DNA of 33,116 nucleotides from Deltaproteobacteria bacterium. Lineage in GTDB: Bacteria > Desulfobacterota > Dissulfuribacteria > Dissulfuribacterales > UBA3076. The DNA is taken from the NCBI GenBank assembly GCA_003194485.1, contig PQXD01000020.1:1-33116 (forward strand), written 5' to 3'. This document shows, piece by piece, positions 11,077-31,261 of this stretch; positions within the stretch are counted from its first letter, which is position 1; each line of letters starts with the position of its first letter. The translations under genes were made by a program, and so were the position numbers. The notes under the pieces are model-generated. The model was not told where the DNA came from and did not search any database. It was given only the letters and a program-made list of their open reading frames with translations.

Positions 11077-12246
11077 TCATCTAAATTGTCTCCGGAAGCG
11101 CCAGACACCGAAACCAAATACCAGACTGCCGAGCAAGCTGAGGCCAAGCAGGGAGTCCCATAGAATCCCGATCCCCGCTCCCTTCAGCAGAATGCCGTAG
11201 GACACCTCGATATAGTAATAGAGCGGGGAGATATACATGGCCTGGCGAATACCCGCCGGCATGGCCTCAGCTGGCGTCCAGGCCCCGGACAGGAGGATGA
11301 TCGGCATCATGATCATGATGGTCATCATGGCGGCCTGGGCAAGGTTGCGGCTCATGGTCGAGATAAACAGGCCGAGACCTGACATGTCAAAGGTGTACAT
11401 GGCCGTCACCGCAAAGAAAAGCGGCAGGCTGCCCTTCATGGGCGCATGGAAAATCCCTTTTATGACCAGGGTGAGGCTCAGCGCCGTTCCCAGCAGGATA
11501 ACCAGGGTCATGGCAATGACCTTGGGCAGCAGGATCTGTATCGGTGTCAGCGGTGAGACCAGAAGTTGCTCGATGGTGCCGCGTTCCTTTTCGCGCACGG
11601 CGGCCGCGGCGGGCAGCATCATGGCCAGCACGGTAATCACGGTCAGCAGTTCGGAGATGGACATGAACCAGGAATCCTTCTGGTTCGGGTTGTACCAGAC
11701 CCGGTGGCGATCGACGAGCATAGGCACGGCAGCAAGACCTTCACCGGTCAGCCCCATGCGCTGCAACGCCGCATCAAATCCGTATTGTCCGATGATCTGC
11801 CCACTGTAGCTTGCCGCAAGGGTCCCGAGGACCATGTTGCTGGTATCTATTTGTACCTGCACCTCCGTCGGCCTGCCCTGGATCAGGTCGTGCTGAAACC
11901 GGGGCGGGATGTCCAGCACCATCAGTGCCTCGCCCTGGTCCAGCAGCCGGATTCCTTCGTTCTGGTCCAGAATCTCACCCCCCAGTTGGAAATAAGGCGG
12001 CTGGAAACGATAGATCATCTCACGGGATGCCAGACTGTGATCCATGTCATGGACCACGACGTTCGCCTTGCTGAGATCCATCTTGACCCCACCCGCCATC
12101 ATGATGTCGAGGGTGAACAGATAGAGCACGGCCAGCACCAGCAAGGTATCGCGTGCAAGCTGCAGCAATTCCTTGCCGGTCATGGCGGCCATTCTCGACC
12201 ACCACAAGTAAATGGATCCGCTGCTGTTCCATATGGAATGACTCAT
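11077..12246 (-). CDS. ABC-2 type exporter permease (YbhR-like)
   Basis: A 389-aa inner-membrane permease. It has one N-terminal membrane helix, a large periplasmic loop (residues about 50-200, starting VVVHDMDHSLASREM), and a C-terminal block of five to six helices with the conserved VREKERGTIEQLLVSPL segment that contacts the ATPase. The ATG at 12246 overlaps the stop of the upstream permease by 4 bp (ATGA), a sign of translational coupling. A longer in-frame extension to 12561 overlaps that gene and is rejected. It should pair with the adjacent permease and the twin-ATPase to export drugs or other hydrophobic compounds, as in YbhFSR. Confidence 0.88.
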   Translation of the reverse strand: MSHSIWNSSGSIYLWWSRMAAMTGKELLQLARDTLLVLAVLYLFTLDIMMAGGVKMDLSKANVVVHDMDHSLASREMIYRFQPPYFQLGGEILDQNEGIRLLDQGEALMVLDIPPRFQHDLIQGRPTEVQVQIDTSNMVLGTLAASYSGQIIGQYGFDAALQRMGLTGEGLAAVPMLVDRHRVWYNPNQKDSWFMSISELLTVITVLAMMLPAAAAVREKERGTIEQLLVSPLTPIQILLPKVIAMTLVILLGTALSLTLVIKGIFHAPMKGSLPLFFAVTAMYTFDMSGLGLFISTMSRNLAQAAMMTIMIMMPIILLSGAWTPAEAMPAGIRQAMYISPLYYYIEVSYGILLKGAGIGILWDSLLGLSLLGSLVFGFGVWRFRRQFR

Positions 12247-13397
12247 GAGCGCACCCTCTTGTGAAACAGCAGGTAGGAGGCTGTCCACAATACACCGGAA
12301 TAAAACAGCAGCGCGCCCACCCGGCCCCAGAGCTGCCCCACGCCGATGCCCTTCAGAAAACTCCCTAAAACAATATCGGTATAGTACATGGCCGGAAACA
12401 GGTGGGCCTCGAATTGCGAGGCGGCATCCATCGAGGCAATCGGCACCAATAGCCCTGAATAGAGCACCGCCGGAACGATGGTGACTATCACCGTGATCAT
12501 CATGGCCGCCACCTGGGTGCGGGCGAACAGGGAGACCAGGAGCCCGATGCCGGTGGTACAACTGACATAGACCACCGAGGCCAGGAAGAAGAACAGCGGA
12601 TCGCCTTTGAACGGTGCGGCAAACACCAGTACGGCCATCAACCAGAGGATGATTACATTGATTATGGAAATGCCCAGATAGGGCAGCAGCTTGCCGATCA
12701 GAAACTCTGCCCGGGTCACAGTGGAAGAGTAGATGTTATAAATGGAGCCGTTTTCTTTTTCACGAACCACCCCAAGTGCGGTGAGAAAGGGTGGAGTCAT
12801 CAACAGAACGAACATCATCATGGACGGCGCAACAGACCAGATGCTCTTGATCTCCTGGTTGTACAGGTAGCGTAGCTGAACCTTCACTGGTCCCGCCAGG
12901 GCAGCCGCCTGCTCGGGCGGGATACCCATTTTCCGGCTGATAAAACCAGCTAACAGCTTGCCGTTGAAGGCGTTGTTGATGGCGATGACGTAGCCTTTGC
13001 TGGTCGATGTGCGAAATGGAAAGGTGCCATCAATGAGGGATTGCACCGCCACCGGCCTGGCTGCCTTCAGATTTTCCTGAAATTTCGGCGGGACGATGAT
13101 CGCAAAGCGGATCTTGCTGTCTGCCAGCAGGGGTTCAAGTTCCCGTTCGCTCTGCACATGGCCCTTGTAGTCGAAATAACGGGAGTCCATGAAAAGATGC
13201 AGATAATCCCGGCTCATGGCCGTGCGATCCTGATCCAGGACGGCAAAGGGGATATTCTCCACATCCATCATGATGCCGTAACCAAAAATCAGCATCATGG
13301 AGACAGGGAGGATGAAGGCGAGGGCGAGGAAGAGGCGATCACGCAGGATCTCGCGCCATTCTTTATAAGCGAGCGCTTTAATACGGGCTGGATTCAT
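12243..13397 (-). CDS. ABC-2 type exporter permease (YbhS-like)
   Basis: A 384-aa inner-membrane protein with the same plan as its neighbour: an N-terminal helix after KALAYKEWREILRDRLFLALAF, a periplasmic domain of about 130 residues, and C-terminal helices following GVVREKENGSIYNIYSSTVTRAEFLIGKLLPY. It overlaps the ATPase gene upstream (ATGA at 13394-13397) and the second permease downstream, so expression of the three is coupled. The order adaptor-ATPase-permease-permease is that of E. coli ybhGFSR. Substrate unknown. Confidence 0.88.
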   Translation of the reverse strand: MNPARIKALAYKEWREILRDRLFLALAFILPVSMMLIFGYGIMMDVENIPFAVLDQDRTAMSRDYLHLFMDSRYFDYKGHVQSERELEPLLADSKIRFAIIVPPKFQENLKAARPVAVQSLIDGTFPFRTSTSKGYVIAINNAFNGKLLAGFISRKMGIPPEQAAALAGPVKVQLRYLYNQEIKSIWSVAPSMMMFVLLMTPPFLTALGVVREKENGSIYNIYSSTVTRAEFLIGKLLPYLGISIINVIILWLMAVLVFAAPFKGDPLFFFLASVVYVSCTTGIGLLVSLFARTQVAAMMITVIVTIVPAVLYSGLLVPIASMDAASQFEAHLFPAMYYTDIVLGSFLKGIGVGQLWGRVGALLFYSGVLWTASYLLFHKRVRS

Positions 13398-15340
13398 CGA
13401 GAACGGGCCTCCTTTTCCCGCGCCATGATGCGATAAACAAAGACATCCTCCATGCTTGGAATACGGGGGGTGATACCCAGCAGGGAGATGCCCTGTTGCA
13501 TCAACCGGGACTCGATCTGTTGGCGGGCCTGTTGCGGATCTTTTGCTAACAGGTGAATACGTCTGCCGAACAGGGCCACGCCAGCGAAACCGGCCTGTTC
13601 CAGTACTTTCAAGGCCATCAGCGGCCGATCGGTGGCAACATCCAGCAGTTGCCCTGCCTCCTGCTGCAAGGCCTGCTTCATCTCGGCCGGCGAGGCGTCG
13701 GCGATGATGCGGCCGGCATACATCAGGGCCAGGTGATCGCAGTGTTCCGCCTCACTCATGTAGTGGGTGGTTACCAGGATCGCCACCTGTTCCACCCGCG
13801 CCATCCGCACCAGGATGTCCCAGAAGCGGCGCCGTCCGATGGGGTCCACACCCGATGTTGGTTCATCCAGGAACAGTACCCGCGGCCGGTGCACCAGGGC
13901 GCATCCCAGGGCCAGCCTCTGGCGTATACCCATCGGCAGTTTTCCGGCCAGACGGTCTTCGACACCCTGCAATCCCGCCATCTCGACAACCCAGTCAGTG
14001 CGCTGTTTGAGCCGGCTGCGCGGCACGGCGTAGATGCGGGCGTAAAGGCGGATGTTCTCCAGCACCGTCATATCCCGATAGAGGGAGAATGCCTGGGACA
14101 TGTAGCCGATGTGCTCCTTGACGGCCTGGCGGGCGCGACGCATGTCCGCGCCCGCCACACGGCCTTCCCCGCCGGAGGGCGGGAGAATGCCGGTGAGCAT
14201 CTTGATCACCGTGGTCTTGCCGGCGCCGTTGGCGCCGAGCAGTCCGAATATCTCACCCTGAATGACATGGAAACTGACCTGATCCACGGCCCGGAAGCTG
14301 CCGAAGTCGCGCGTCAGACCACGCGCCTCAATGGCAACCTCGTCACCGGCCGGCGGCTCGGCGAGCGGAGTCCCTGCCGCCCCTGCCGCAGGTTGCCCGG
14401 CCAGCTTTTGCTGACGCAACAGGGCCACGAAGGCATCCTCAAGCTCGGGATCAACCGCCTGGATTGCCTCGACAGAGAGATCGTCAAGCGATGCCGCCAC
14501 CTGCTCTCGCGCCGCCCCGGAAGAGACCCCATCTACGAACACCCGCACAACCGGGCCGACCGCTTCCACCTGTGGATATTTCGCCTTGAGCCGATGCAGT
14601 GCCTCGATCTGGGGCTTGACTGTGACCTCCACCAGGCTGCCTGGCACGGCCTGACGAATCTGATCCGGTTCCCCTGCTGCCAGTATCCGTCCTTCATACA
14701 TAAGGGAGAGTCGTTGAAAACGGGTGGCTTCATCCATGTAGGCGGTAGAGACCAGGGCCGTGATGCCCCGCTTGCGCAACAGCTCGGCAAGAATGGCCCA
14801 GAAGTCCCGCCGCGAGACCGGATCGACACCGGTGGTGGGTTCGTCCAGGATCACCAGTTCTGGTTCGTGAACCAGGGTACAGGCCAGGCCCAGTTTTTGC
14901 TTCATGCCGCCGGAGAGCTGTTTCATGGGGCGATCCCGGAACCTGTCCAGCCGCGTCATGGCCAGGAGTTGGCGCTTACGCTGCGCAAGCAACCCGGGCG
15001 GCACCTCGCGCAACTGAGCGAAGAAATCGATATTCTCTTCCAGCGAGAGTTCCGCATAGAGATTGAGTCCCAGCCCCTGTGGCATGAACCCGATCCGTCC
15101 TTTGACCTTCTCCGCCGCCGCCTCGGAATCTATCCTGATGCCGAACACCTGCACCTCCCCGCCCTCGAAAGAGAGGACGCCGGCGATGGCCTTCATCAGG
15201 GAGCTCTTGCCGGCGCCGTCCGGGCCGATGAGGCCATAGATCTCACCAGGCTGAATGCCCAGATCCACGCCGTCCACTGCCACCTGCTTGCGGTAGCGCT
15301 TGCAGAATCCCTGAACTTCGACGACCGGGGAAACCGGCAT
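13394..15340 (-). CDS. twin-domain ABC transporter ATPase (YbhF-like)
   Basis: A 648-aa cytosolic protein containing two complete nucleotide-binding domains. Domain 1 has Walker A GPDGAGKSS near residue 38, signature LSGGMKQ and Walker B LVILDEPTTGVDP. Domain 2 has Walker A GANGAGKTT near residue 365, a degenerate signature LPMGIRQ and Walker B VLFLDEPTSGVDP. The linker near 320-335 is rich in alanine and proline. Fused ATPases with an altered second signature are usual for the YbhF/RbbA group. It energises the two adjacent ABC-2 permeases. It starts 5 bp after the stop of the HlyD adaptor and overlaps the first permease by 4 bp. Confidence 0.92.
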   Translation of the reverse strand: MPVSPVVEVQGFCKRYRKQVAVDGVDLGIQPGEIYGLIGPDGAGKSSLMKAIAGVLSFEGGEVQVFGIRIDSEAAAEKVKGRIGFMPQGLGLNLYAELSLEENIDFFAQLREVPPGLLAQRKRQLLAMTRLDRFRDRPMKQLSGGMKQKLGLACTLVHEPELVILDEPTTGVDPVSRRDFWAILAELLRKRGITALVSTAYMDEATRFQRLSLMYEGRILAAGEPDQIRQAVPGSLVEVTVKPQIEALHRLKAKYPQVEAVGPVVRVFVDGVSSGAAREQVAASLDDLSVEAIQAVDPELEDAFVALLRQQKLAGQPAAGAAGTPLAEPPAGDEVAIEARGLTRDFGSFRAVDQVSFHVIQGEIFGLLGANGAGKTTVIKMLTGILPPSGGEGRVAGADMRRARQAVKEHIGYMSQAFSLYRDMTVLENIRLYARIYAVPRSRLKQRTDWVVEMAGLQGVEDRLAGKLPMGIRQRLALGCALVHRPRVLFLDEPTSGVDPIGRRRFWDILVRMARVEQVAILVTTHYMSEAEHCDHLALMYAGRIIADASPAEMKQALQQEAGQLLDVATDRPLMALKVLEQAGFAGVALFGRRIHLLAKDPQQARQQIESRLMQQGISLLGITPRIPSMEDVFVYRIMAREKEARSR

Positions 15341-15345
15341 TTCTG

Positions 15346-16455
15346 CTACCAGCGCGGCTTGGCCCAGGGCGCATCCTCCTGCCAGCGGATCACGGCATCA
15401 GCGGGCAGCCCCGGCGTTAAACGATGCTCCGGGTTCGCATCAAGGTAGAGCTTGACCGCGTACACAAGCTTGACCCGTTCATCCGGGGTCTGGACCTCTT
15501 TTGGCGTAAATTCCGCAGTGGAAGAGATATAACGCACCGTGGCGGGAAAGGGGGTATCCGGAAAGGCATCGGTATAGATCCGGGCAGGCAGCCCCAGCCG
15601 CAGCTTGCCGATCTGTTTTTCCGGCACATAACACTTTAGATAAAGACGATCCAGATCGACGATATCGAACAGGGGGCTGCCGGCTACAATCACCTCGCCG
15701 GTATCCACTATCCGGGTGGTGATCATTCCTGTTGCCGGAGCATAGATGGTAAGATCGTCCAGTACGCTTTGCGCCTCGGCCAGAGCAGCCTGTGCCTGTT
15801 TCAACTGCGCCTCCAGGGCGGATACCTGACTTTTCTTGCTCTTGATCCGGTCCCAGCCCAAATCGGCCTCGGCCAACTGCTTTTTTGCCCGGGTCAATGC
15901 CGCACGGGCTACTGCATGGTCCTCTTTGGCGACCCTGAGCGCAAGATCCGCATGTTCACTTTTTTGCCTGGATACTGAATATGTCTTGACTAATGTTCCA
16001 TAACGCCGGGCATCCCGGCCGGCCTGCTCCAGTTTCACCTCTGTTGCAGCCAGAAGGGCTTCCGCATGGACGACCCCGGCCCTTGCAGTGTCTATCTTCA
16101 ACGGGACTGTTTTCTTTAATGTGCTCAGGTCGACTCGTGCTGCCTTGAGTTGTGCATCTGATGCCTTGGCTGCCGCCCTGGCCTGTTCGACCCGGGCCCG
16201 TATTTGAACATCATCCAGCTTAATCAAGGTCTGGCCCGTTCTTACCCAGTCCCCTTCATGCGCCAGTAACCGGACAATGCGGCCGGCCACTTTGCTGGCA
16301 ACGGTGTAGTGATCGCCCTCGATACGGCCGTTGGCCTGGATGAGTCCTTCGGGCAGCGGTTTCTGCCGGCCCCAGAACCACCAGGCGGTCACTGCCGATC
16401 CGGCCAGGGCAATTCCCAGCAGGATGCCGATTGTCCTTTGAGTTTGCTTTTTCAT
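15346..16455 (-). CDS. HlyD-family periplasmic adaptor (YbhG-like)
   Basis: A 369-aa membrane-fusion protein. One N-terminal membrane anchor (residues about 9-28) is followed by the first half of a lipoyl domain (GRIEGDHYTVASKVAGRIVRLLAHEGDWV), a long alpha-helical hairpin (about 80-230) with many alanine/lysine heptads, the second lipoyl half (IYAPATGMITTRIVDTGEVI) and a beta-barrel (LYLKCYVPEKQIGKLRLG). It links the ABC permeases to an outer-membrane channel. None is encoded next to it, so the TolC-type lipoprotein at 17325-18749, two genes upstream, is the likely partner. Only 5 bp separate it from the ATPase gene. Confidence 0.9.
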   Translation of the reverse strand: MKKQTQRTIGILLGIALAGSAVTAWWFWGRQKPLPEGLIQANGRIEGDHYTVASKVAGRIVRLLAHEGDWVRTGQTLIKLDDVQIRARVEQARAAAKASDAQLKAARVDLSTLKKTVPLKIDTARAGVVHAEALLAATEVKLEQAGRDARRYGTLVKTYSVSRQKSEHADLALRVAKEDHAVARAALTRAKKQLAEADLGWDRIKSKKSQVSALEAQLKQAQAALAEAQSVLDDLTIYAPATGMITTRIVDTGEVIVAGSPLFDIVDLDRLYLKCYVPEKQIGKLRLGLPARIYTDAFPDTPFPATVRYISSTAEFTPKEVQTPDERVKLVYAVKLYLDANPEHRLTPGLPADAVIRWQEDAPWAKPRW

Positions 16456-16478: not shown

Positions 16479-17300
16479 TTAATGGAAAAACAAAAGCTCA
16501 GGGACATCATCGATGGCACCCAGTTGTCGGGCTTTTCTCAGATAGGTGAGAAATCCCTGCTGGTATTCAGGGCCGAATTCAAATTTCAGACCTGTGAAAT
16601 AATCCTTTAAAAATTCTGTTGAAAAGACATCCCATCGGGCCGCTTCCTCTGCTATGTGGTCAACATGCTTTTTGCTCATCTCCATGGAGTGCTGAAAAGC
16701 GCGGATGACTTTGCGGACGTTTTCCGGATGTCTGGCGGCATAGTCCCTGCGAACGCACCAGACGGCGTACACCATTTTTTCGCCTGTAAATGCGGACCAT
16801 TCTTCTCCGAGATCGTACAGGTAATAACCGGACGGTGTCTGGAGCGCCCGCAGGGCGTCATCGCCGATCAGTAAGGCCGCCTGGGCCTCACGAAACATTT
16901 GGCCCAGATCCGGCGGGCATTCAAAATAGGCGGGGCGCAGTCCATATTTTTCTTCCAGAATTATCCGGGTGAGTAGCTGGGAAGTAGCTGACGTATTGGT
17001 CATGGCGACGGTTTTTTCGTCCAATTGCTCAATGGGGACCTTGCTGATCAACAAGATACTCATTACCTTGCCGTCGGAGCTGATGGTCAGATCAGGCAAG
17101 AGAAGCAGTTCGCCGGCATGCCGGGCGTATTCGATTGCCGGGACCGGGCTGATATCCAGTTCATCGGCCAGCAATCGATGACACAGGGCCTTGGGGCTGT
17201 CTTTGAAAAGGTCGATATTGAGCACTACCTGATTTTGAACCAGACAATGGTACAAGGGAAGACTGTTGAGAAATTGAATGTGACCGACGCGTGGTTTCAT
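16479..17300 (-). CDS. mqnA: MqnA/MqnD-family protein, probable chorismate dehydratase
   Basis: A 273-aa protein without a signal peptide. It opens VGHIQFLNSLPLYHCL and continues DISPVPAIEYARH and LLPDLTISSDGKVMSILLISKVP, which matches the MqnA family of the futalosine menaquinone pathway. MqnA dehydrates chorismate to 3-[(1-carboxyvinyl)oxy]benzoate in the cytosol. The fold is that of a type II periplasmic-binding protein, so a binding-protein-like paralogue is an alternative. Its setting is odd: about 24 bp separate it on each side from the TolC-type gene and from the HlyD adaptor, and no other menaquinone gene is nearby. It is clearly co-transcribed with efflux genes. The family is secure; use in menaquinone synthesis is inference. 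Confidence 0.8.
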   Translation of the reverse strand: MKPRVGHIQFLNSLPLYHCLVQNQVVLNIDLFKDSPKALCHRLLADELDISPVPAIEYARHAGELLLLPDLTISSDGKVMSILLISKVPIEQLDEKTVAMTNTSATSQLLTRIILEEKYGLRPAYFECPPDLGQMFREAQAALLIGDDALRALQTPSGYYLYDLGEEWSAFTGEKMVYAVWCVRRDYAARHPENVRKVIRAFQHSMEMSKKHVDHIAEEAARWDVFSTEFLKDYFTGLKFEFGPEYQQGFLTYLRKARQLGAIDDVPELLFFH

Positions 17301-17324: not shown

Positions 17325-18749
17325 TTACCTGCCGCCTCCGCCCAATACCGCGTAAAGCCGTACTTGGTTGGCGAATTTGGCCAGGCGCAGCGAGATAAGC
17401 CCCTGCCTTGCGGCATAAAGGGAGCGTTGGGCATCCAGCACGCCCAGATAGCTGTCGATTCCCTTTAAATAGCGTTGATTTGAGAGACCATAGGTCTCTG
17501 CAACGGCATCTGTCAGGGATTTCTGGGCGGATACCTGCTGGTTTATCGTGCCCTGCACGGCAAGCGCATCGGCCACTTCCCTGAAGGCCGCCTGGATGGT
17601 CTTTTCATACTGGGTCAGGGCTATCTCACGTTCGGTCTTGCTGACCCTGTATGCAGCCCAGGTACGTGCATCAAAGATGGGCATGGTGGCCTGGGACGCA
17701 AAGTTCCACGTCTTTGATCCGGAGCTGAACAGCCCGGACAGCTCATCGCTTGCGGTTCCCAGCGTGGTCGTCAAAGAAATCCGCGGAAAGAATGCGGCAC
17801 GGGCCGCGCCGATAAAGGCATACGCCCCCTTGAGGCGATGTTCCGCCGCAAGAATGTCCGGCCGGTTCAAAAGCGCCTCGGAGGAAAGGCCTGCAAAAAT
17901 TTCCTTTGGAGGAGTCACCTCTGATAAACCCTTTGGCAGGAGTGTTTCGGGCACCGGAGAGCCGGCCAGGAGGTTTAATGCGTTCTGGTCCAGGGCCGCC
18001 ATTTGCGTGTAGCGGGCGACGTCTCCCCGGGCGGTGTCGACCTGGGTCTGTGCCCGGCTGAGGTCCAGTTTTGTGGCGATACCGACTTCATACTGCCTGC
18101 GGATCAGGTCATGGATCTCCTGCTGGGTCTCAAGCGTGGACCGGGCGAGGTCCAGCCCCTCTCGGTCGGCGGCAAGGGTCAGGTATGCCCTGGCGACCTC
18201 GGACACCAATGCTATCCGGGCGCTTCTGCGGGCCTCCTCGGTGGCCAGGTATTCTTCAAGGGCCCTGTCTTTCAGGCTCCGGATCCGTCCGAAAAAATCG
18301 ATCTCCCATGCACTGATGCCGAGGTTTACTTCATACCGTTCGATGGTCAATGATTCCGGAAAGCCCATGACATTTGCAGGAATCCGTTGTTTGCCTCCGC
18401 CTCCTGAGGCGTTTATCGACGGAAAGAGTTCGGCCCGCTGGACACCGTACATGGCCCGCGCCCTCTCCACGTTCAGGGCGGCGAGCCGAAGATCACGATT
18501 GTTGGCCAGGGCCGTCTCGATGACCTCTTGAAGCCTCGGATCGATGTAAAACTTCCGCCAGCTGAGTTCATAGGGTGCCGGAGAGACAGGCTGGGCCTTT
18601 GCCTCCTTGTACGCCGCGCCGCTCGGCCACTCTGCAGGGATGGGGGCTTCGGGTCTGGTGTATTTCGGAGCCAGGGCACAGCCGCCCATAGAGATGGCAA
18701 TTCCAATAATTACAGGAAGCAGTTTCATGTTTTTACTCATCTTCATCAT
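17325..18749 (-). CDS. TolC/NodT-family outer-membrane efflux lipoprotein
   Basis: About 474 aa. A lipoprotein signal ends in SMGGC (C24), so the mature protein is acylated, and the N-terminus APKYTRPEAPIPAEWPSG is typical of the OprM/NodT group. Two outer-membrane efflux domains with long coiled helices follow (RQYEVGIATKLDLSRAQTQVDTAR in the first; NQRYLKGIDSYLGVLDAQRSLYAARQ in the second). Trimers form the exit duct for RND pumps. Two further in-frame ATGs (18746, 18740) are possible; spacing from AGGGGA favours 18746. It starts 16 bp after the pump stop, and it is the only outer-membrane channel in the operon. Confidence 0.92.
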   Translation of the reverse strand: MMKMSKNMKLLPVIIGIAISMGGCALAPKYTRPEAPIPAEWPSGAAYKEAKAQPVSPAPYELSWRKFYIDPRLQEVIETALANNRDLRLAALNVERARAMYGVQRAELFPSINASGGGGKQRIPANVMGFPESLTIERYEVNLGISAWEIDFFGRIRSLKDRALEEYLATEEARRSARIALVSEVARAYLTLAADREGLDLARSTLETQQEIHDLIRRQYEVGIATKLDLSRAQTQVDTARGDVARYTQMAALDQNALNLLAGSPVPETLLPKGLSEVTPPKEIFAGLSSEALLNRPDILAAEHRLKGAYAFIGAARAAFFPRISLTTTLGTASDELSGLFSSGSKTWNFASQATMPIFDARTWAAYRVSKTEREIALTQYEKTIQAAFREVADALAVQGTINQQVSAQKSLTDAVAETYGLSNQRYLKGIDSYLGVLDAQRSLYAARQGLISLRLAKFANQVRLYAVLGGGGR

Positions 18750-18765
18750 TGATCCCCTGATGGAT

Positions 18766-21700
18766 TCAATTGTTCGTCTTTGACCGCATGGTCTCCCCGC
18801 CGCGTTTGACCAGGGCCTTTCTGATCAACACATAGAAGAGGGGTGCAAAAAATACGATCAGCACGGTTGCCGTCACCATTCCGCCGAACACGCTGGTGCC
18901 GATGGCCCTCATTGACCCGCCTCCAGCGCCTCGCGCCAGGGCCAGGGGAAGCACCCCGAATCCGAAGGCAAAGGAGGTCATGACAATGGGACGGAACCTG
19001 AGCTTTGCGCCTTCCAGAGTGGCTTTTATGAGCTCCATCCCCTCGTCCACTCTGGCCCTTGCGAACTGCACGATGAGGATGGCATTTTTGGTGGTCAGAC
19101 CCAGCGTGGTCAGGAGGCCTATCTGGAAATAGACGTCATTAGGAAGCCCCCTCAATGATGAAGCTATGATGCCGCCGATTGCCCCCACGGGAAACGTGAG
19201 CATTATGGCTATGGGGATGGGCCAGCTTTCGTACAGGGCGGCAAGGCAGAGAAATATCACGAATACCGAAAAGGCGTAGACCAGGGGGGCCTGGGCCGTG
19301 GCCTGTCTTTCCTGGTAGGAAAGACCCGTCCAGTCAAAGGCTGTACCCTTTGGAAGCCTTGACGCGAGTTCTTCCATGGCGGCCATGGCCTCACCGGAAC
19401 TCCTCCCGGGCGCCGCCTCTCCCCAGATGTTGATGCTTGGAAAACCGTTGTATCTTTCAAGCTTCGGGGACCCGTAGCTCCAGTGCCCGGTGGCAAAGGC
19501 GGAAAAGGGGACCATCCTGCCCTCATTGTTTCGTACATAGATCTTTTCGAGATGATCCGGAAGCATCCTGAAAGGGGCGTCTGCCTGGATATAGACCTTC
19601 TTGACACGCCCGGCCCTGACAAAGTCGTTTACATAGGCGCTGCCGAAGGATGCGGCAATGGCATTGTGGATGGAAGAGATGGGCACTCCCATGGCGCCTG
19701 CCTTCTCCCAGTCGATATCTATGTAGTACTGGGCCACGTCCTCCATGCCGTTCGGCCTCACCCGGATGAGCCTTGGGTCCCGGGCCGTCATGCCAAGGAG
19801 CTGGTTTCGGGCCGTCATGAGCCTTTCATGGCCGAGTCCGCCGAAGTCCAGGAGCTCGAAATCAAACCCCTTGGCGTTGCCGAGCTCGATTATTGCAGGC
19901 GGCGGAAACGCAAAGACCATGGCCCCCTTTATCTGGGAAAAGACGCGCATGGCCCTTCCCGCCACGGCCTGCACCTTGAGATCGGGCCGGCGGCGAAGTC
20001 CCCAGTCTTTCAGATGGACAAACCCTATGCCCATGTTCTGGCCCTGGCCGCTGAATGAATATCCGGCAACATTCGCATAGGACTTGACTGCATCCTTTTC
20101 GTTCTTGAGGAAGTAGTCTCCCGCCTTATCGAGGACGGCCTGGGTCTGCTCCAGGGTCGAGCCGGAGGGGAGTATGGCCTGGACAAACAGCACGCCCTGG
20201 TCTTCGTCCGGAAGATAGGCGGTTGGCATGCGCATGAACAAAAAACCTGTTATCCCTGTAATTATCAGGTAGATGACCACGTAGCGGGCCTTTCTGCCCA
20301 GCATGTGCTCCACCAGCCGGACATAGCGGTTTCTTGCGCCGTAAAAGATGCGATCGAACCACCGGAGGAAGGGGCGAAGGAAAAAGACCGCGCTGTCTGC
20401 CGGTTCATGGCCGGGCGGCCGTGGTTTCAGCAGGGACGCGCAGAGTACTGGCGTGAGGATCAGGGCCACCAGCACCGAAAGGAGCATGCTCGAGGCGATG
20501 GTCACGGAAAACTGGCGGTAGATGATGCCGGTGGAGCCGGGGAAAAAGGCCATTGGGCCGAATACCGCTGCCAGCACCACTCCGATGCCTATGAGGGCAC
20601 TGGTGATCTGGTCCATGGATTTCGCAGCGGCCTCTTTTGGCGGAAGCCCTTCTTCTGTCATGATGCGGTCCACGTTTTCCACCACCACTATGGCGTCATC
20701 CACCAGGAGGCCGATGGCAAGGACCATGGCGAACATGGTGAGCATATTTATGGAAAATCCCAGGACCCCGATTACCGCAAATGTCCCGAGTATGACCACC
20801 GGCACCGCAATGGAGGGAATAAGGGTGGCGCGAAAGCTTCCCAGGAACAGCCACATCACCAGGAAGACCAGCAAGATCGCCTCGAAAAGGGCCTTTACCA
20901 CCTCATGGATGGCCACCTGCGTAAATGGGGTTGTGTCATAGGGATAAACCACCTTCATGCCCGGAGGAAAGTAGCGGCTCATTTCCTCGAGTTTCTTTTT
21001 TATGCGGTCTGCTGTTTCAAGGGAGTTTGCGCCGGATTCCTTTCGGATGGCAAGGAAAGCGGAAGGCTTGCCATTGTATTTGGCCACTACATCATAGCGT
21101 TCGGTTCCCAGTTCCACTCGCCCGACATCCCTGATCCTGACAATAGATCCGTCCGGGTTGGTGCGGATGGGGATGGCGGAGAACTCCGCCGGGGTCTTGA
21201 GGTAATGCTGGACAATGATGGAGGCGTTAAGGCGCTGACCTTTGACCGCGGGCGCGCCGCCGAACTGCCCGGCGGAAACCTCCACGTTGTAGGCCAGAAG
21301 TGCCCCGGTTACGTCATCTATGGTCAGAGAATAGTTAGTCAGCTTGTCCGGGTCGATCCAGACGCGCATGGCGTATTCCGTACCGAATGCTTCCACTTCA
21401 CCCACGCCCGGCACCCGTGCGAGTATCTTTTCCAGGTTGGATTTGGCATAATCCCTCAGATCGTGGCCGTCCATGCTGCCGTCTTCTGAAATAATCCCCA
21501 CAATCAACATGTAGTTCCGGGTCGATTTGCTGACCTTGACCCCCTGGCGCTGCACCACATCGGGCAGGCTTGCCATGGCAAGCTGGAGCTTGTTCTGCAC
21601 CTTGGACCAGGCAAGGTCAGGGTCTGTCCCGGGGGCAAAGGTGAGTTCGATGCGGCTTGCTCCCGAGGAACTGCTGCTGGCAGACAGATAGAGCATCTTG

Positions 21701-21921
21701 TCCAGCCCCGTCATCTTCTGCTCTATGATCTGGGTGACGGTGCTTTCCACGGTCTCGGCCGAGGCGCCTGGATAAAAGGCGTCAACCGCTATGACAGGAG
21801 GTGCGATGTTCGGGTACTGGGAGATGGGGAGAAAATAGATGGCCAGGGCCCCGGCACTCATGATGGCGATGGCAATGACCCAGGCAAAGACCGGACGGCC
21901 CAGGAAGAATCTCGACAGCAT
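18766..21921 (-). CDS. RND multidrug efflux pump, HAE1 (AcrB/MexB) type
   Basis: A 1051-aa inner-membrane proton-driven exporter of the usual length. It starts MLSRFFLGRPVFAWVIAIAIM and shows two six-helix blocks separated by two large periplasmic loops. The proton-relay aspartates are present in GLLVDDAIVVVENVDR (helix 4) and the partner lysine in TTLGLTTKNAILIVQFA (helix 10). The ATG at 21921 is chosen over an adjacent GTG at 21924: GGAGG lies 6 nt upstream and the start overlaps the adaptor stop (TGATG). It works with the adaptor upstream and the TolC-type lipoprotein downstream. Substrates are probably amphiphilic drugs, detergents or metabolites. Confidence 0.95.
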   Translation of the reverse strand: MLSRFFLGRPVFAWVIAIAIMSAGALAIYFLPISQYPNIAPPVIAVDAFYPGASAETVESTVTQIIEQKMTGLDKMLYLSASSSSSGASRIELTFAPGTDPDLAWSKVQNKLQLAMASLPDVVQRQGVKVSKSTRNYMLIVGIISEDGSMDGHDLRDYAKSNLEKILARVPGVGEVEAFGTEYAMRVWIDPDKLTNYSLTIDDVTGALLAYNVEVSAGQFGGAPAVKGQRLNASIIVQHYLKTPAEFSAIPIRTNPDGSIVRIRDVGRVELGTERYDVVAKYNGKPSAFLAIRKESGANSLETADRIKKKLEEMSRYFPPGMKVVYPYDTTPFTQVAIHEVVKALFEAILLVFLVMWLFLGSFRATLIPSIAVPVVILGTFAVIGVLGFSINMLTMFAMVLAIGLLVDDAIVVVENVDRIMTEEGLPPKEAAAKSMDQITSALIGIGVVLAAVFGPMAFFPGSTGIIYRQFSVTIASSMLLSVLVALILTPVLCASLLKPRPPGHEPADSAVFFLRPFLRWFDRIFYGARNRYVRLVEHMLGRKARYVVIYLIITGITGFLFMRMPTAYLPDEDQGVLFVQAILPSGSTLEQTQAVLDKAGDYFLKNEKDAVKSYANVAGYSFSGQGQNMGIGFVHLKDWGLRRRPDLKVQAVAGRAMRVFSQIKGAMVFAFPPPAIIELGNAKGFDFELLDFGGLGHERLMTARNQLLGMTARDPRLIRVRPNGMEDVAQYYIDIDWEKAGAMGVPISSIHNAIAASFGSAYVNDFVRAGRVKKVYIQADAPFRMLPDHLEKIYVRNNEGRMVPFSAFATGHWSYGSPKLERYNGFPSINIWGEAAPGRSSGEAMAAMEELASRLPKGTAFDWTGLSYQERQATAQAPLVYAFSVFVIFLCLAALYESWPIPIAIMLTFPVGAIGGIIASSLRGLPNDVYFQIGLLTTLGLTTKNAILIVQFARARVDEGMELIKATLEGAKLRFRPIVMTSFAFGFGVLPLALARGAGGGSMRAIGTSVFGGMVTATVLIVFFAPLFYVLIRKALVKRGGETMRSKTNN

Positions 21922-23144
21922 CACGCACCTCCGCCAGGACGGGTATCTTGCCCGGCTCCATCACCGCCTCGGGCGCCCATGGCGTTTTTGCCCTCATGGA
22001 AAGGCGCGGCCTTTACCGGCATCCCCGGACGCACGAATTGAAGGCCCTCTACAATAACCCTGTCGCCTGGAGAAACCCCCGAATCCACCAGCCATTTATC
22101 GCCAATGGCACGGTCGAGTTTAAGCATCCTCATCTCCACCCTCTCGCCTGCGCCCATAACTAAGACGTAAGGCTCACCCTTTGGCGTCCTGGCTACGGCC
22201 TGTTGGGGCACAAGGATGGCTGCCTCCCTGACCCCTTCCTTTATGACAGCACGGACGAACATCTTTGGCAGGAGAACCTTCTCGGGGTTGGGGAAGACCA
22301 TTCGAAGGATTACGGACCCGGTGGTGGGGTCAACCGAGACGTCACGAAACTGGAGAGTGCCTTCCAGCAGATACGGCATCCCGTCTTCCAGAATGAGCTT
22401 GACCTCGGTCTGATCCCTTCCATTGTGATCAAGATTGCCGCTTTGCAGGCGGCGCTTAAGGCGCAACAATTCCGTTGTGGAACGAGGCACGTCCACGTAG
22501 ATCGGGTCGAGTTGCTGGATGGTGGCAAGTGGAGTGGGTTGATAGGCCGTAACTATGGCGCCCTCGGTCACGTTGGACGGACCAATGCGCCCGGGGATGG
22601 GAGCGGTGATCTTCGTGTAGCCCAGATTGATGCGAGCCGTCTTCACCTGTGCCTTCCAGTACTCGATCTCCGCATCGGCCTGCTTGAGAGCGGCAGTTGC
22701 ATCGTCATAGTCCTGCTGGCTCACGGCCTTTGTGGCAAGAAGCTCCTTGAAGCGATCGGCCCTTAGCTGAATAGCGGGCAGATTGGCCTCTGCCTTGGCA
22801 AGAGCTGCCTTGGCATTGTCCAAGGCTGCCTGGAATTCAGCAGGGTCGATCTGATAGAGCACCTGGCCCGCCTTTACATCCGTTCCTTCTGTAAAGAGGC
22901 GCCTTTTTATAAGGCCGCTTACCTGGGGCCTTATCTCTGCAATGCGAAACGCCGCGGTTCGGCCTGGCAGTTCGGTTGAAAGCTCCACCCGTTGCGGCTT
23001 GACAGTCACCACCGATACTGCCCGTGGGCCAGGAGGCGGGCCGCCATGTTCTGAAGGCCCCCTGTCACAGCCTCCAAGCCAAAGGAATACGGGAAAAACA
23101 ACCAGGGTCAAAATTTTTAACAATATAGGTCTGGTATCAGCCAT
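21921..23144 (-). CDS. RND efflux periplasmic adaptor lipoprotein (AcrA-like)
   Basis: A 407-aa membrane-fusion protein. The lipoprotein signal ends in LWLGGC (C26). The lipoyl halves flank a helical hairpin: RIAEIRPQVSGLIKRRLFTEGTDVKAGQVLYQIDP before it and GYTKITAPIPGRIGPSNVTEGAIV after it. A beta-barrel and membrane-proximal domain follow (VLLPKMFVRAVIKEGV). The ATG at 23144 is preferred because GGAGG precedes it at normal distance; the frame runs on to 23186 without a site. It joins the RND pump to the TolC-type channel. It begins 54 bp after the TetR gene and overlaps the pump gene by one base. Confidence 0.93.
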   Translation of the reverse strand: MADTRPILLKILTLVVFPVFLWLGGCDRGPSEHGGPPPGPRAVSVVTVKPQRVELSTELPGRTAAFRIAEIRPQVSGLIKRRLFTEGTDVKAGQVLYQIDPAEFQAALDNAKAALAKAEANLPAIQLRADRFKELLATKAVSQQDYDDATAALKQADAEIEYWKAQVKTARINLGYTKITAPIPGRIGPSNVTEGAIVTAYQPTPLATIQQLDPIYVDVPRSTTELLRLKRRLQSGNLDHNGRDQTEVKLILEDGMPYLLEGTLQFRDVSVDPTTGSVILRMVFPNPEKVLLPKMFVRAVIKEGVREAAILVPQQAVARTPKGEPYVLVMGAGERVEMRMLKLDRAIGDKWLVDSGVSPGDRVIVEGLQFVRPGMPVKAAPFHEGKNAMGARGGDGAGQDTRPGGGA

Positions 23145-23198
23145 TAAAAATCCTCCAGGAAAGAAAATCGGCCGGTGAAGCCGCAATCACCCGGAACC

Positions 23199-23822
23199 TT
23201 AATCATTAAGCAGCCCCTTGAAAAGAATATTCAAAATGATGTCCGGGTCCTCCGGATAGGTATGGTTCTCTGGATCTTCGAGCCAGAGAAAAAGAAAGGC
23301 GTTGCAAAGACTGTCAAGGGCAACGGCCAGCTGATACGGCTCTGCGATCTTATGAAACCGTTTCTTTTTCATCCCGCGTTCAAAGACCGGGGCGAGGGTA
23401 TGCAGAAACTGGCCATATCGTTCCCGAATCTCCCTGTCAAGGCCTGCCTTGATATTGAAGCTCGCTCCCCGGGTTTCGGCAAAGTAGAGGCGAATGACCG
23501 GGACGTTTTCCATAAAGACAGCACCCTTGGTCTTCACATAATTTCGCAGTTTTTCAATTTCGTCATCCGTCTCTCCTATGGCCTTCGTGAGGGCCTCATG
23601 GAACCTGTCGGCCTGCTCAACGATAAGGGACTTATAGAGGTCCTCCTTGTTTTTAAAGAACTTGTAGAGCGTTCCGATGGCAAATTCGGCTTTCTCGGCA
23701 ATCTCGTGCATGGATACATTGTGGTATCCCTTCTCGGAGAAAAGCTCCAGTGCTACGGCGAGCATATCTCGGCGCTGCCTGAGTTTCTCTCTTTCCCGAC
23801 GTGAGAGTTTTTTCCTTTGCAT
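23199..23822 (-). CDS. TetR family regulator of the efflux operon
   Basis: A 207-aa regulator with the N-terminal helix-turn-helix ALELFSEKGYHNVSMHEIAEKAEFAIGTLYKFFKNKEDLY. The C-terminal helical domain would bind an inducer, presumably a pump substrate. It is the first gene of a same-strand run of nine genes extending to 11077, so it probably autoregulates the whole operon, as with AcrR-like or CecR-like regulators. The gap to the adaptor gene is 54 bp with no terminator. Its first 25 residues resemble the stump at 9928-10026. Confidence 0.92.
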   Translation of the reverse strand: MQRKKLSRREREKLRQRRDMLAVALELFSEKGYHNVSMHEIAEKAEFAIGTLYKFFKNKEDLYKSLIVEQADRFHEALTKAIGETDDEIEKLRNYVKTKGAVFMENVPVIRLYFAETRGASFNIKAGLDREIRERYGQFLHTLAPVFERGMKKKRFHKIAEPYQLAVALDSLCNAFLFLWLEDPENHTYPEDPDIILNILFKGLLND

Positions 23823-23884
23823 TATTCGGCCTTCGCTTGGTTTCGTGTTTCTATACTTTGTGAATCTGACGTCATATTAAATAA

Positions 23885-23930
23885 AATGACATATAATTCA
23901 TATTTTTAAGAATGAAATATATTTTGTCAA
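23885..23930 (-). promoter_or_regulatory. candidate promoter/operator of the efflux operon
   Basis: On the minus strand a perfect -35 TTGACA occupies 23930-23925. The best -10 options downstream are weak (AAAAAT at 17-bp spacing, TATGAA at 21). The region 23870-23940 is very AT-rich. It contains a TGACGTCA palindrome near 23868 and a second TGACATAT-type half-site about 18 bp further on, a possible TetR operator. Assigned from position and motif only. Confidence 0.35.
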
Positions 23931-23982
23931 GCAGATAATTGACTTAACCGGGCAAAAGGGCTAAGAAAAAATTGTTCAATAA

Positions 23983-24322
23983 GTAAATATCCGGTGAACC
24001 CGTTATATCCTGCCTTGGAGCGGTTTACCTTTTTCCGGGTTTCGAGGCAAACCGCTCCTGCGGCAGGGCACGGACGGCAACCGTTCACGGAAAGGGGATA
24101 TTTCTTTGAACAGTTTAACGGAAGCCCCCGCAGTTTTCCCGGCTTTTGCTATGGGGGAAACTGCATCGCCTTAAGCGCAGCGTAAGGCGAATGCAGAGGG
24201 GGGCAGGACATTCCCCATGTCAAAGGCCTTGAGAAAACAAGGGGCTGAATGGTGGAAGTGAAAAGAAATATCCCCTGCCACTGAACGGTTACGTGGGACC
24301 ACGGGTTCATAAGAATATTTAC
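23983..24322. mobile_element. MITE-type element, copy 1 (340 bp), with 8-bp target duplication
   Basis: The ends are inverted repeats: GTAAATATCCGGTGAACCCG on the left and the complement of ACGGGTTCATAAGAATATTTAC-type sequence on the right. TTCAATAA occurs directly on both sides (23975-23982 and 24323-24330), a perfect 8-bp target-site duplication. The first 60 bp are almost identical to copy 2 at 30034. No reading frame of transposase type is inside, so it is non-autonomous. It occupies most of the gap between the efflux tetR and hdrA and ends 57 bp before the hdrA start, so it may carry or displace the hdrA promoter. Confidence 0.85.
24079..24290. repeat. nested inverted-repeat element inside MITE copy 1
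   Basis: The 29-bp arms 24079-24107 and 24262-24290 are inverted repeats with four mismatches; each contains AACCGTTCA and AGGGGATATTTCTTT. The segment is absent from copy 2, where GGCAAC is followed directly by the right end. It looks like a second small element inserted in the first. No target duplication is clear. Confidence 0.65.
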
Positions 24323-24387
24323 TTCAATAAATTTTGCATAAGCTTTGTTTAGGCGGGAGTGAAAAGTTTTAAGAGGGAGACAGCCCT

Positions 24388-27300
24388 ATGTCAAAGGATG
24401 TAAAGGGATCGGTAATGGTTGTCGGTGGCGGGGTCGCCGGAATGCAGGCTGCGTTGGACCTGGCGAATTCGGGCTTCCTGGTGCATATAGTTGAAAAGTC
24501 CGCTGCCATTGGCGGCGTGATGAGTGCGCTGGACAAGACCTTCCCCACCAACGACTGTGCCATGTGAATTATTTCCCCCAAACTGGTCGAGGTCGGCCGG
24601 CATCTGAACATCAACCTCATCACCCTGGCGGATGTGGAATCCATCGAGGGTGAGGCGGGAAATTTTCGAGTAACTGTCCGTGAACGTCCCCGCTATGTGG
24701 ACATGGATAAATGTATCGCATGCGGGATCTGTGCCCAGAGATGTCCCCGCAAGGTAAGAGATGAGTACAACCAGGGCCTGGCCAAGCGCAAGGCCATCTA
24801 TGTGCAATATGCCCAGGCCGTACCGCTCAAATACGTGATAGATGCGGATCACTGCATCTATTTCAAGAAAAAGGGCAGGTGCAGGGCCTGTGAAAAGTAC
24901 TGTCCGGCAGGTGCCATTGATTTTACGCAGAAAGAGAAAATCCATAAAATCGAAGTAGGTTCTGTTATCCTGGCACCCGGCTTCGAGCCCTTTGATCCCT
25001 CCGGATTAGATACATACATCTATGCAAAACACCCTAATGTCGTCACCGCCATGGAATTTGAGCGTATGCTCTCTGCTTCCGGCCCCACCATGGGGCATCT
25101 CGTGCGATCTTCCGACGGGAAGGAACCCGAAAGGATCGCCTGGCTCCAGTGTGTCGGCTCAAGGGATATCAATCGATGCGACCACGGCTATTGTTCTTCA
25201 GTCTGCTGCATGTATGCCGTCAAAGAGGCGGTCATTGCCAAGGAACATGCGCGGGGCGTAAAAGCGACCATTTTCTATATGGACATGCGCACTCATGGCA
25301 AGGATTTTGAGGAATATTATAACCGGGCCCGTGATGAGCACGGCGTGCGGTTTATCCGTTCGCGCGTCCATACCGTAAATCCGGTAAAAGACGGCGATCT
25401 TGAGCTTATCTATGTCGATGATAACGGTAAATTAAAGAGCGAAATCTTCGACCTTGTAGTGCTCTCAACCGGCCTTCAGATAGGAAAGGATAGCATAGAA
25501 CTGGGAAAACGCCTCGGGATTGAGCTGGATAGATACAATTTCGCCTTGACGGATAGTTTTGTACCTGTAGCGACTACGCGAAAAGGCATCTTTGTATGCG
25601 GGGCATTCCAGGGGCCAAAGGACATCCCCCAGTCTGTCACAGAGGCCTCTGCGGCCGCAGCGGCATCCAGCGTGCTTTTGAGCAAGGGCCGCTGGACCCA
25701 GACCCGGGTTCATGAGATGCCGCCCGAGACCAGTGTGACTGGAGAGCCGCCGCGTATCGGGGTCTTTGTCTGCCATTGCGGAATCAACATCGGCGGCGTA
25801 GTGGATGTGCCTGAAGTGGTGGATTATGCCAAGACACTCCCGTACGTCACCTATGCCGAAGACAACATGTATACCTGCTCCCAGGATACCCAGGTGAAGA
25901 TGTCAGAAGTCATCAAGGAACAGGGTATCAACCGGGTGGTGGTTGCTGCATGCACCCCCAAGACCCACGAGCCGCTTTTCCGGGAGACCCTGATGAATGC
26001 CGGCCTGAACAAGTACCTGTTCGAGATGGCCAATATCCGCAATCAGGACTCCTGGGTGCACAGCAAGGACCATGCAGCCGCCACGGAAAAGGCCAAAGAC
26101 CTTGTGAGGATGGCGGTCAGCAAGGCGGCACTGCTGGAGCCCCTTTCAGACACGGAACTGGGCTTCAACCCGCTCACCATGGTAATAGGCGGAGGTGTTG
26201 CCGGCATGGTGTGTGCGAAGAACCTGGCGGATCAGGGTTATGAGGTCCATCTGGTCGAACGCTCGGAGGACCTGGGCGGCCAGGCAAAGTTCCTCCATAA
26301 GACATGGAGGGGCGAAGACATCCAGGCCTATGTGAATAATCTGGCAGACGAGACCGAGAGAAATCCCCGGATACATGTACACCGATCCACCGAGCTTACC
26401 AATGTGGAAGGTTTTGTAGGTAACTTCTCCTCCACCTTAAAAAACGGGGATAAGGAAACTGAGCTCAGGCACGGGGTGGCAGTGATCGCCACGGGTGGTC
26501 ATGAATACAAGCCCACTGAGTACCTCTATGGGGAGGATCCACGTGTGCTCACCCATCTGGAACTGGATGCACGCTTTATTCAGGATGATCCGGCCCTCAA
26601 GGATATCCGGTCAGCGGCCTTCATCCAGTGTGTCGGCTCCAGGGAACCTGACCGTCCCTATTGCAGCCGGGTCTGCTGCACACACACCGTAGAGAGCGCA
26701 CTGGAACTCAAGCGGCGCAATCCGGACATGGACGTGTATGTGCTGTATCGCGACATCCGGACATACGGGGAGCGGGAAGACCTGTTCAGAGAGGCCAGGG
26801 AAAAGGGAGTTATATTTTTCCGCTATGACCTGCAATCCAAGCCAAAGGTGAGTAGAGGAAAAGATGCCCTGGAGATCGGGCTGGAGGATCAGATCCTCAA
26901 GAGACCCATCATCCTCCAGGCTGATCTGCTTGTACTTGCAACCGCTGTAGTGCCGTCTGGAGCAGGGCAACTGGCCACATTCTTCAAGATTCCGGTAAGC
27001 GAAAGCGGATTCTTCATTGAGGCCCATGCCAAGCTGAGGCCGGTTGACTTCGCCACTGACGGGATCTTCCTTTGCGGGCTGGCCCATTATCCCAAGCCCA
27101 TTGATGAGAGCATTGAGCAGGCCCTTGCAGCGGCATCCCGTGCATCCGGCCTTATCGCAACGGGCAAGGTCTTTGCGAGCGGCACCGTGGCCGACATCAA
27201 TCCCATGTGGTGCAGCGGCTGCGGGGTATGTGTTGCCATCTGCCCCTACTCGGCGCCATCTATCATGGAAGAGGGGCGATTTGCGGGCAAGGCGCAGATA

Positions 27301-27414
27301 AATCCTGTACTGTGCAAGGGCTGCGGCCTGTGCGTGGCATCCTGCCGGTCAGGGGCCATAGACCTCAAGGGATTTGCCCAGGATCAGATCATGGCCATGA
27401 TTAATGAGGTGTAG
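24388..27414 (+). CDS. hdrA: HdrA-like FAD/iron-sulfur subunit, duplicated form, selenoprotein (Sec60)
   Basis: Reads through an in-frame TGA at 24565-24567 to give 1008 aa. Residues 8-36 form the first FAD site ([13 protein letters not shown]). The HdrA hallmark follows as [21 protein letters not shown], with U60 where relatives have cysteine. [4Fe-4S] motifs lie at C109/112/115/119 and C156/165/168/172. A second HdrA-like unit starts at [13 protein letters not shown] near 455, with its own FAD site ([12 protein letters not shown], about 600) but no FPTNDC-x-C/U motif. CVGSR...YCS.VCC occurs in both halves. Two C-terminal ferredoxin-type clusters lie at about 943-989. HdrA is the bifurcating flavoprotein of heterodisulfide-reductase-type complexes. 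AGAGGGAGA precedes the ATG. Ignoring the UGA would give a product beginning only at 24634 or later. Confidence 0.93.
24565..24600 (+). promoter_or_regulatory. Sec UGA codon and SECIS-like hairpin in hdrA
   Basis: TGA at 24565-24567 is followed by a hairpin at 24583-24600: CTGGTC pairs with GGCCGG (with G-U pairs) around a GAGGUC loop. The loop starts 21 nt after the UGA, within the range of bacterial SECIS elements that bind SelB, and has the loop guanines expected. The protein context supports selenocysteine strongly, the hairpin moderately. Confidence 0.75.
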
Positions 27415-27424
27415 GAGAAATTAT

Positions 27425-27856
27425 ATGAACGACTGGGAGCCGAAGATTACGACCTTTCTCTGTAACTGGTGCAGCTATGGAGCCGCTGATCTGGCAGGTG
27501 TGAGCCGTTTTCAGTATCCCCCGAATTTCAGGGTGATCCGCGTACCCTGCTCCGGCCGTGTGGGCCCGAAGTTTATATTGGCCGCCTTCCGTCACGGGTC
27601 TGACGGCGTCTGGGTATCCGGGTGACACCCCGGAGACTGTCATTACCTGGAAGGTAATTACTACGCAAGAAGAAAATTCGCCCTGTTGAAGGGGCTTCTG
27701 GAGCATATCGGGATTGAACCCGGCAGGCTGCATTTTTCCTGGATATCGTCTGCTGAAGCAACCAAGTTTGTTGAGGTGGCGCAGGAGGTGGCAAAAGAAG
27801 TAAAGGCCCTGGGGCCTGCGAAACACTTTATCAAGAAAAGGGCCGAGGTGGCATAA
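27425..27856 (+). CDS. FlxD/MvhD-like [2Fe-2S] electron-transfer subunit, selenoprotein (Sec67)
   Basis: 143 aa if the in-frame TGA at 27623-27625 is read as selenocysteine. The frame carries the MvhD family motifs [23 protein letters not shown] and [26 protein letters not shown], where relatives have GCHPGDCHY. MvhD-type proteins pass electrons between HdrA and a partner oxidoreductase through a [2Fe-2S] cluster. A ribosome site (GGAG) overlaps the hdrA stop, the start lies 10 bp after it, and the TAA overlaps the next start (TAATG). Standard calling would split it into two short meaningless frames. The FlxD name is given because FlxABC-like genes follow. Confidence 0.92.
27623..27658 (+). 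promoter_or_regulatory. Sec UGA codon and SECIS-like hairpin in the mvhD-like gene
   Basis: After TGA at 27623-27625, ATTACCT (27642-27648) and AGGTAAT (27652-27658) form a perfect 7-bp stem with a GGA loop. The loop begins 23 nt after the UGA. Small apical loops with GG are characteristic of bacterial SECIS elements such as that of fdhF. Confidence 0.85.
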
Positions 27857-28806: not shown

Positions 28807-28812
28807 CGCCTA

Positions 28813-30259: not shown

Positions 30260-30279
30260 TATATACAGGGAGTATTACA

Positions 30280-31122: not shown

Positions 31123-31261
31123 GGAAAGCCGGGTTTTATGCATTACTTAAATTAAACGGACAGTATATGCTGTTGATATTAAAAGAGGATATTGGTAGGT
31201 GGCAGGACAATTGATGCGTTGCTGTGCACAACACTCCATTGAGCTTTAAGGACAAAATTGT

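Follow-up and report, generated by a model that had tools for sequence, protein, structure and literature searches.

Drug-insensitive duplicates of a target enzyme, carried beside efflux pumps, are a general kind of resistance. Among the pathways for which inhibitors have been described is the futalosine route to menaquinone: excerpts of PMC8788868 cite such compounds and present the pathway as a drug target pursued in Helicobacter and Campylobacter, and siamycin I appears as a futalosine-pathway inhibitor in an excerpt of PMC12730657. Tirandamycins, boromycin and aplasmomycin are further compounds reported to inhibit this route. In one Streptomyces, extra mqn genes are found in a naphthoquinone biosynthesis cluster, as described in excerpts of PMC4763440. 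Among titles and abstract openings we found no efflux-linked mqnA, the gene for chorismate dehydratase; excerpts of PMC6190872, where “futalosine” and RND terms occur together in gene lists of actinomycete isolates, give no efflux-mqnA linkage, and the word “efflux” is absent from excerpts of Zhi et al. 2014 (PMC3914697).

Here, we studied an mqnA-like gene in a deltaproteobacterial genome (GCA_003194485.1, hereafter G000; 2.55 Mb, 97.4% complete). The window, that is, the whole stretch of 33,116 nucleotides that was analyzed, is an entire contig of this genome (C20; PQXD01000020.1). Our reading of the locus, held with considerable confidence on the strength of comparative sequence evidence, is that the native mqnA has been replaced by a horizontally acquired copy lying within a TetR-headed efflux operon.

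The window gene and its operon

A sequence-only reading had placed an MqnA-family gene between a TolC-type channel and an HlyD adaptor, at about 24 bp from each, and the gaps bear this out: 24 bp on the side of the outer-membrane channel (OEP) gene and 23 bp on the side of the HlyD gene, with all three genes on one strand. That no other futalosine gene lies nearby also held, given that none occurs among the 19 window ORFs that were scanned against Pfam, and that genome-wide searches for PF02621, MqnC and MqnE add none on this contig. The operon (Table 1) runs on a single strand, from 23822 to 11077, in the order TetR-AcrA-AcrB-OEP-mqnA-HlyD-ABC-ABC2, and no gap exceeds 24 bp when the listed starts are used (the start of AcrA may be later). 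It thus brings together the adaptor, AcrB-type pump and outer-membrane channel of a tripartite RND system. Homology of the second ABC-2 permease begins near residue 114 of its open frame, which puts the probable true start close to 12220. Close to the end of the efflux block, a short frame at 10680-11147 matches approximately the first third of LpxR (PF09982) and is apparently a truncated gene.

Table 1. Features of the window discussed in the text (identities are to the corresponding proteins of G041 and G013, except for the right flank)
Feature	Position	Strand	Evidence and remarks
mqnA, foreign type (chorismate dehydratase)	16479..17300	-	PF02621; SCO4506 match; N/S/Y kept; native type not found
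TetR regulator, first operon gene	23199..23822	-	PF00440; 74% to G041, 87% to G013
AcrA-type adaptor	21921..23186	-	TIGR01730, 285 bits; true start may lie after the listed TTG; 60% to G041, 86% to G013
AcrB-type RND pump	18766..21924	-	PF00873, 1212 bits; TIGR00915; 75% to G041, 91% to G013
Outer-membrane efflux channel, NodT/OEP family	17325..18749	-	PF02321, TIGR01845; 68% to G041, 72% to G013
HlyD-family adaptor	15346..16455	-	PF16576, PF13437
Double ABC ATPase, part of RbbA-like ABC-2 exporter	13394..15340	-	PF00005 twice; NF033858 below cut-off
ABC-2 permease 1	12243..13397	-	PF12698
ABC-2 permease 2 (open frame)	11077..12561	-	PF12698; NF033858 from residue 114
Putative TetR operator	23869..23892	-	ATGTCA, 12 bases, TGACGT; overlaps 8-base palindrome TGACGTCA (23867-23874); read and inferred from the sequence, no statistic
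Promoter-like site ahead of TetR	23902..23930	-	TTGACA-17-AAAAAT; consensus match only
Dispersed repeat, right border of foreign block	23980..24332	.	few hundred bases
Native right flank, redox/iron-sulphur gene locus	24412..31136	+	six of seven congeners match in pieces (DNA identity about 73-92%)

The mqnA ORF begins with ATG and encodes 273 amino acids, of which residues 4-258 match VitK2_biosynth (PF02621) at 243 bits (E 3.5e-72; cut-off 26 bits). The nearest solved structures are entries for the chorismate dehydratase SCO4506 (239 bits), and in the phylogenetic tree described below the protein lies far from the MqnD clade; with a full-length PF02621 match above cut-off and SCO4506, rather than MqnD, as its closest counterpart, it was assigned to MqnA. 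The sole NCBIfam match, to the SsuA family, scores 36.7 bits (2.6e-9), far under the cut-off of 163.5. The sequence-only reading had also proposed comparing the active-site residues with solved MqnA structures, and this comparison, which covered three of the SCO4506 mutants (Asn to Ser in 7an7, Ser to Ala in 7an8 and Tyr to Phe in 7an9; 7an6 and 7ywc are further ones), found the mutated Asn, Ser and Tyr kept in all three cases. The same residues are present, by eye in the alignment, in the mqn-operon MqnA copies of G041 and G042, two genomes that each carry an efflux-linked mqnA as well. Six residues, including Phe171 and Cys182, are common to the efflux-linked trio and missing from nine canonical relatives in the alignment.

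The TetR regulator may control mqnA; a putative operator lies ahead of its gene, the first of the operon. A perfect-arm version of this operator stands ahead of a related TetR in the congener G005, and TGACGTCA also occurs ahead of TetR in G013, a genome from another family; the operator in its window form was not seen ahead of TetR in G041 or G014. Promoter-like sites number 12 in the region, with 7.6 expected. The G005 regulator (L211, 7414-8034) is 57% identical to that of the window and has a similar operator-like site, but it precedes an AcrA-AcrB pair that is only 35-40% similar, and regulator and pump may therefore have been exchanged.

Loss of the native mqnA and the rest of the futalosine pathway

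The window gene had been proposed as a possible orphan menaquinone gene. This is rejected, because the other genes of the pathway were found on two other contigs of G000, C3 and C8. A PF02621 search of the genome returned two proteins, the window protein and one on C8 that falls inside the MqnD clade of the tree and adjoins mqnB; we take the latter to be MqnD, partly from its CPNDTF motif (MqnD proteins have a Pfam match and no NCBIfam match). The adjoining mqnB matches futalosine hydrolase (TIGR03664) at 143.8 bits, above the cut-off of 124.7. On C3 the order is mqnE-mqnC-amidohydrolase-ubiE, with the adjacent mqnE and mqnC both above their family cut-offs and ubiE above the subfamily cut-off of TIGR01934; the amidohydrolase, labeled mqnX here, has aminofutalosine deaminase as its best NCBIfam match, at 172 bits and under the cut-off of 320. 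The remaining pathway, covering mqnB, mqnC, mqnD, mqnE and ubiE, is thus present. No second mqnA was found by PF02621 in the 97.4% complete assembly, so the window gene would be the working MqnA of G000; a second copy could only conceivably lie in unassembled DNA. It had been foreseen that a complete pathway lacking another mqnA would make this simply the housekeeping gene. The housekeeping role stands, and the word “simply” does not, as the native gene appears to have been removed and a foreign replacement taken on.

The site of the missing gene can still be recognized. In all seven congeners (G001-G007) a native mqnA follows the amidohydrolase gene, and the protein is 30-35% identical to that of the window; ubiE comes next in six of them (another ORF is there in G002), and mqnE lies ahead of mqnC-amidohydrolase-mqnA in six (the G004 contig ends within mqnC). 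On the 178,603-base contig C3 of G000, mqnA is absent and the end of the amidohydrolase gene (6372) and the start of ubiE (6307) are 64 bp apart. When G007 is aligned with G000 at this site, the flanks match at 87%, and between them G000 has 52 bp where G007 has 1165 bp. No remnant of a native mqnA was found in a 16-kb stretch of C3, where the best tblastn match had an E-value of 0.24. As judged from these alignments, the comparison shows a clean deletion of the native mqnA at an otherwise intact mqn locus. All 46 genomes of the order match the window protein somewhere, and none of the other 45 carries the window type: the best match is 28-40% identical in 44 of the 45, and in G016 the only match (25%) falls at a single MqnD-like PF02621 place. 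Taken with the evidence on its origin given below, the window protein is probably a working chorismate dehydratase that came from elsewhere.

Origin of the window gene and of the block around it

Relatives of the window gene were sought in samples of one genome per species, with match lists that were sorted by E-value and covered the strongest matches. A draw of 395 genomes across the phylum gave some match in 216, and 14 besides G000 had one at 46-65% identity, the next being at 39%. In 12 of these 14 genomes mqnA adjoins at least one of mqnC and mqnE; for L164 and L166, which make up the remainder, neither was seen within the stretch examined. The order of G117 has a window-type mqnA in 11/11 genomes, at 58-65% identity, adjoining mqnC or mqnE in nine. 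A collection of named genomes yielded 27 loci, the best at 77% (L036, in G041), 70% (L037, in G042) and 52% (L038). The maximum-likelihood tree was built from 109 rows (56/56 window-like, 45/60 native-like and 8/33 MqnD sequences, after matches of <200 aa and duplicates were dropped). It joins the window gene to L036 with support of 100/98 and these to L037 with 100/99, and nests the group among mqnA genes of the G117 order, at an open fork that points to no single donor. The tree shows a foreign phylogenetic position, from which it appears that the gene reached the G000 lineage from another MqnA lineage. Further members of the efflux-linked trio were absent among the matches listed in 257 genomes of the order of G041 (with the G041 copy as query), in 389 genomes drawn from the order of G042, in the 395 genomes from the phylum and in the 46 of the order of G000.

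Plasmid transfer of the window type was considered and rejected: 14 plasmid records matched, all at <60% identity and 12 of them from Streptomyces, and four of the 14 were inspected. Several of these plasmid loci are worth recording. Actinomycete plasmids L206 (NZ_CP108284.1, 9956-10861) and L205 (NZ_CP107850.1, 9959-10840) each carry an mqnA that is the sole mqn gene among those listed over 20 kb; the mqnA of a Streptomyces atratus plasmid lies near NRPS and type I PKS genes, and that of a Nocardia plasmid lies approximately 4 kb from a TetR/DHA2-MFS efflux pair. On the Streptomyces plasmid L203 (NZ_CP108000.1, 6512-12106), mqnB, mqnE, mqnA and mqnC sit beside macrolide glycosyltransferases, an arrangement that recalls the naphthoquinone cluster in excerpts of PMC4763440.

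The block surrounding mqnA has a GC content of 57.7%, as against 49-50% for the genome. At 51%, mqnA resembles the genome and not the block, and may therefore have been inserted separately. The dispersed repeat that marks the block's right border has at least 19 other copies in G000 for its part at 24045-24332, and its part at 23980-24043 recurs in the window at about 30031-30093 (up to 30193). Beyond it lies the flank shared with congeners, the exception being G001, which matches in short pieces only. AcrB has a best match of 41% in the seven congeners and of 90-91% in G013, and the pump is thus foreign to the genus. A locus of this kind might come from an error of assembly or binning, with contig C20 belonging to another organism, and the foreign phylogenetic place of mqnA would be expected in that case. 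The right flank, however, is common to the congeners, so the contig belongs to G000 and contamination is made unlikely; moreover, the native mqnA is gone from an unbroken locus, and without the window gene G000 would have no mqnA at all. We consider such an error extremely improbable.

A survey of how well the neighborhood is conserved, which the sequence-only reading had called for, took in 69 mqnA places, each with between 3.7 and 33 kb of surrounding sequence (two places may be pieces of one gene). RND genes, detected by blastp at E <= 1e-10, occur at three of them, namely the window and its two closest relatives, G041 (L036/L122) and G042 (L037/L125); generic ABC matches occur at five other places. 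In G041, TetR, AcrA, AcrB and OEP genes (identities in Table 1) are followed by a 191-aa methyltransferase gene and then by mqnA, downstream of which remnants of two ABC genes persist in window order, one from the ATPase (29 aa; E 2e-4, a weak match) and one from permease 1 (44 aa; E 3e-9). The methyltransferase (L122, 11335-11910) has a weak UbiE match (2e-8). The window and G041 share one module, and these are therefore not independent linkages. The efflux-linked mqnA of G041 is intact, with dN 0.14 and dS 1.28 relative to the window (rough values, dS being near saturation; it is saturated for the other pairs), and a second mqnA stands in an mqnE-mqnC-amidohydrolase-mqnA operon. G042 likewise has a second mqnA beside mqnE and mqnC, and the efflux-linked copy binned with this genome, on a 6.5-kb contig, comes after a TetR gene and close to another kind of pump (OEP 29%, AcrB end 47%). 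Its mqnB-like protein scores 47.8 bits, under the 124.7 needed for futalosine hydrolase, which makes the pathway label of G042 less sure.

In G013 the four pump-operon genes have no mqnA, and DNA similarity to the window stops with OEP; the pump therefore does not need mqnA. The OEP proteins of the window and G041 are 68% identical, as compared with 60% between G013 and G041, and AcrB is 75% identical to that of G041 in each case. This pattern fits loss of mqnA from G013 together with a change of OEP, or separate histories.

Why mqnA may be linked to pumps, and comparison with known systems

Under the explanation we favor, mqnA came from another MqnA lineage and is carried along within an RND/ABC efflux operon headed by TetR. 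The native gene has been removed from the mqnE-mqnC-mqnX-mqnA-ubiE operon, with the foreign copy in its stead, and the window MqnA would now feed the scattered mqnE, mqnC, mqnB and mqnD genes. Menaquinone synthesis would thus hang on an operon under a regulator that probably responds to substrates of the pump. As for the reason behind the linkage, where we are less sure, the MqnA copy could withstand a futalosine-pathway inhibitor, in which case the module would join efflux to bypass of the target. We tentatively treat target bypass as the leading functional reason because of the cited pathway inhibitors and because the gene is retained beside another mqnA and beside pumps; an extra target copy is present in each case, with the native one retained in G041 and G042 and replaced in G000. 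Recurrence of the linkage in two other genomes hints at a resistance module and is no proof of one. The fullest form of the idea, a horizontally moving, TetR-controlled module in which pumps and an inhibitor-insensitive MqnA together counter natural antibiotics of menaquinone synthesis, with the resistant copy as the sole one in G000, is on present comparisons a rather doubtful one.

A lack of any functional tie between pump and enzyme has about the same likelihood as target bypass, somewhat short of an even chance. On this account mqnA was caught by chance in a transferred efflux block and, being redundant with the native copy, allowed the latter to be lost by drift; it agrees with our explanation on the replacement and parts from it on why mqnA and pump are linked. 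A GC-rich block bordered by a dispersed repeat, an mqnA with a GC content of its own and a G013 pump without mqnA are all as expected from chance capture. It accounts less well for G041, where the efflux-linked mqnA is intact beside decayed ABC genes even though another mqnA sits in the mqn operon, and for a second relative, G042, in which the gene lies beside a different pump. The extra MqnA might instead serve supply or export, yielding 3-[(1-carboxyvinyl)oxy]benzoate or more menaquinone, for an exported product or for respiration when the pump runs. The structure of the operon, the small methyltransferase between OEP and mqnA in G041 and the Streptomyces naphthoquinone cluster in excerpts of PMC4763440 would be consistent with this, but beyond mqnA, efflux and TetR genes none was seen in common between the G041 locus and that of the window or G042 (blastp E <= 1e-4), and the enzyme in G000 must presumably serve menaquinone synthesis as well; we regard this reading as unlikely.

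Least favored among the functional readings is a non-enzyme, that is, a PF02621 paralogue binding an aromatic ligand akin to the pump substrates, as the sequence-only reading had suggested in the alternative. PF02621 shares a binding-protein-like fold, and the match to the SsuA family, although far below its cut-off, points the same way. Against it, the active-site Asn, Ser and Tyr of SCO4506 are kept, reading the N-terminus by eye reveals no secretion signal, and with no other MqnA found G000 would be without this enzyme despite having mqnB, mqnC, mqnD and mqnE. A ligand-binding paralogue is accordingly disfavored and very unlikely.

Were exchange of the first enzyme and a pump to be joined in one natural module, this would suggest a bacterial escape route from inhibitors of this pathway. 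Even if the link to the pump arose by chance, the locus is a clear example of the exchange of a biosynthetic gene, presumably an essential one, for a foreign copy from an efflux operon, with the lost native site still readable.

Compared with described systems, the window protein resembles SCO4506-type MqnA (PF02621) in whole-length homology, in its catalytic residues and in its best solved match, and differs in that its gene lies in an efflux operon rather than an mqn operon and has its nearest relatives in other orders. The upstream half of the locus has the gene order and the family of each part known from TetR-regulated AcrAB-NodT/OEP RND operons, whereas in the window this tightly packed operon continues downstream into mqnA and an HlyD-ABC-ABC2 exporter. 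With drug-insensitive duplicate targets it has in common that a target enzyme is present in an additional copy, within a cluster of efflux genes that includes a regulator; insensitivity is hypothetical here. The PM100117 cluster (gonM1-M4), as described in excerpts of PMC4763440, is alike in having a second mqnA that is apart from the housekeeping copy and tied to another system; there, however, that system is naphthoquinone synthesis with other mqn genes, whereas here a lone mqnA stands beside pumps.
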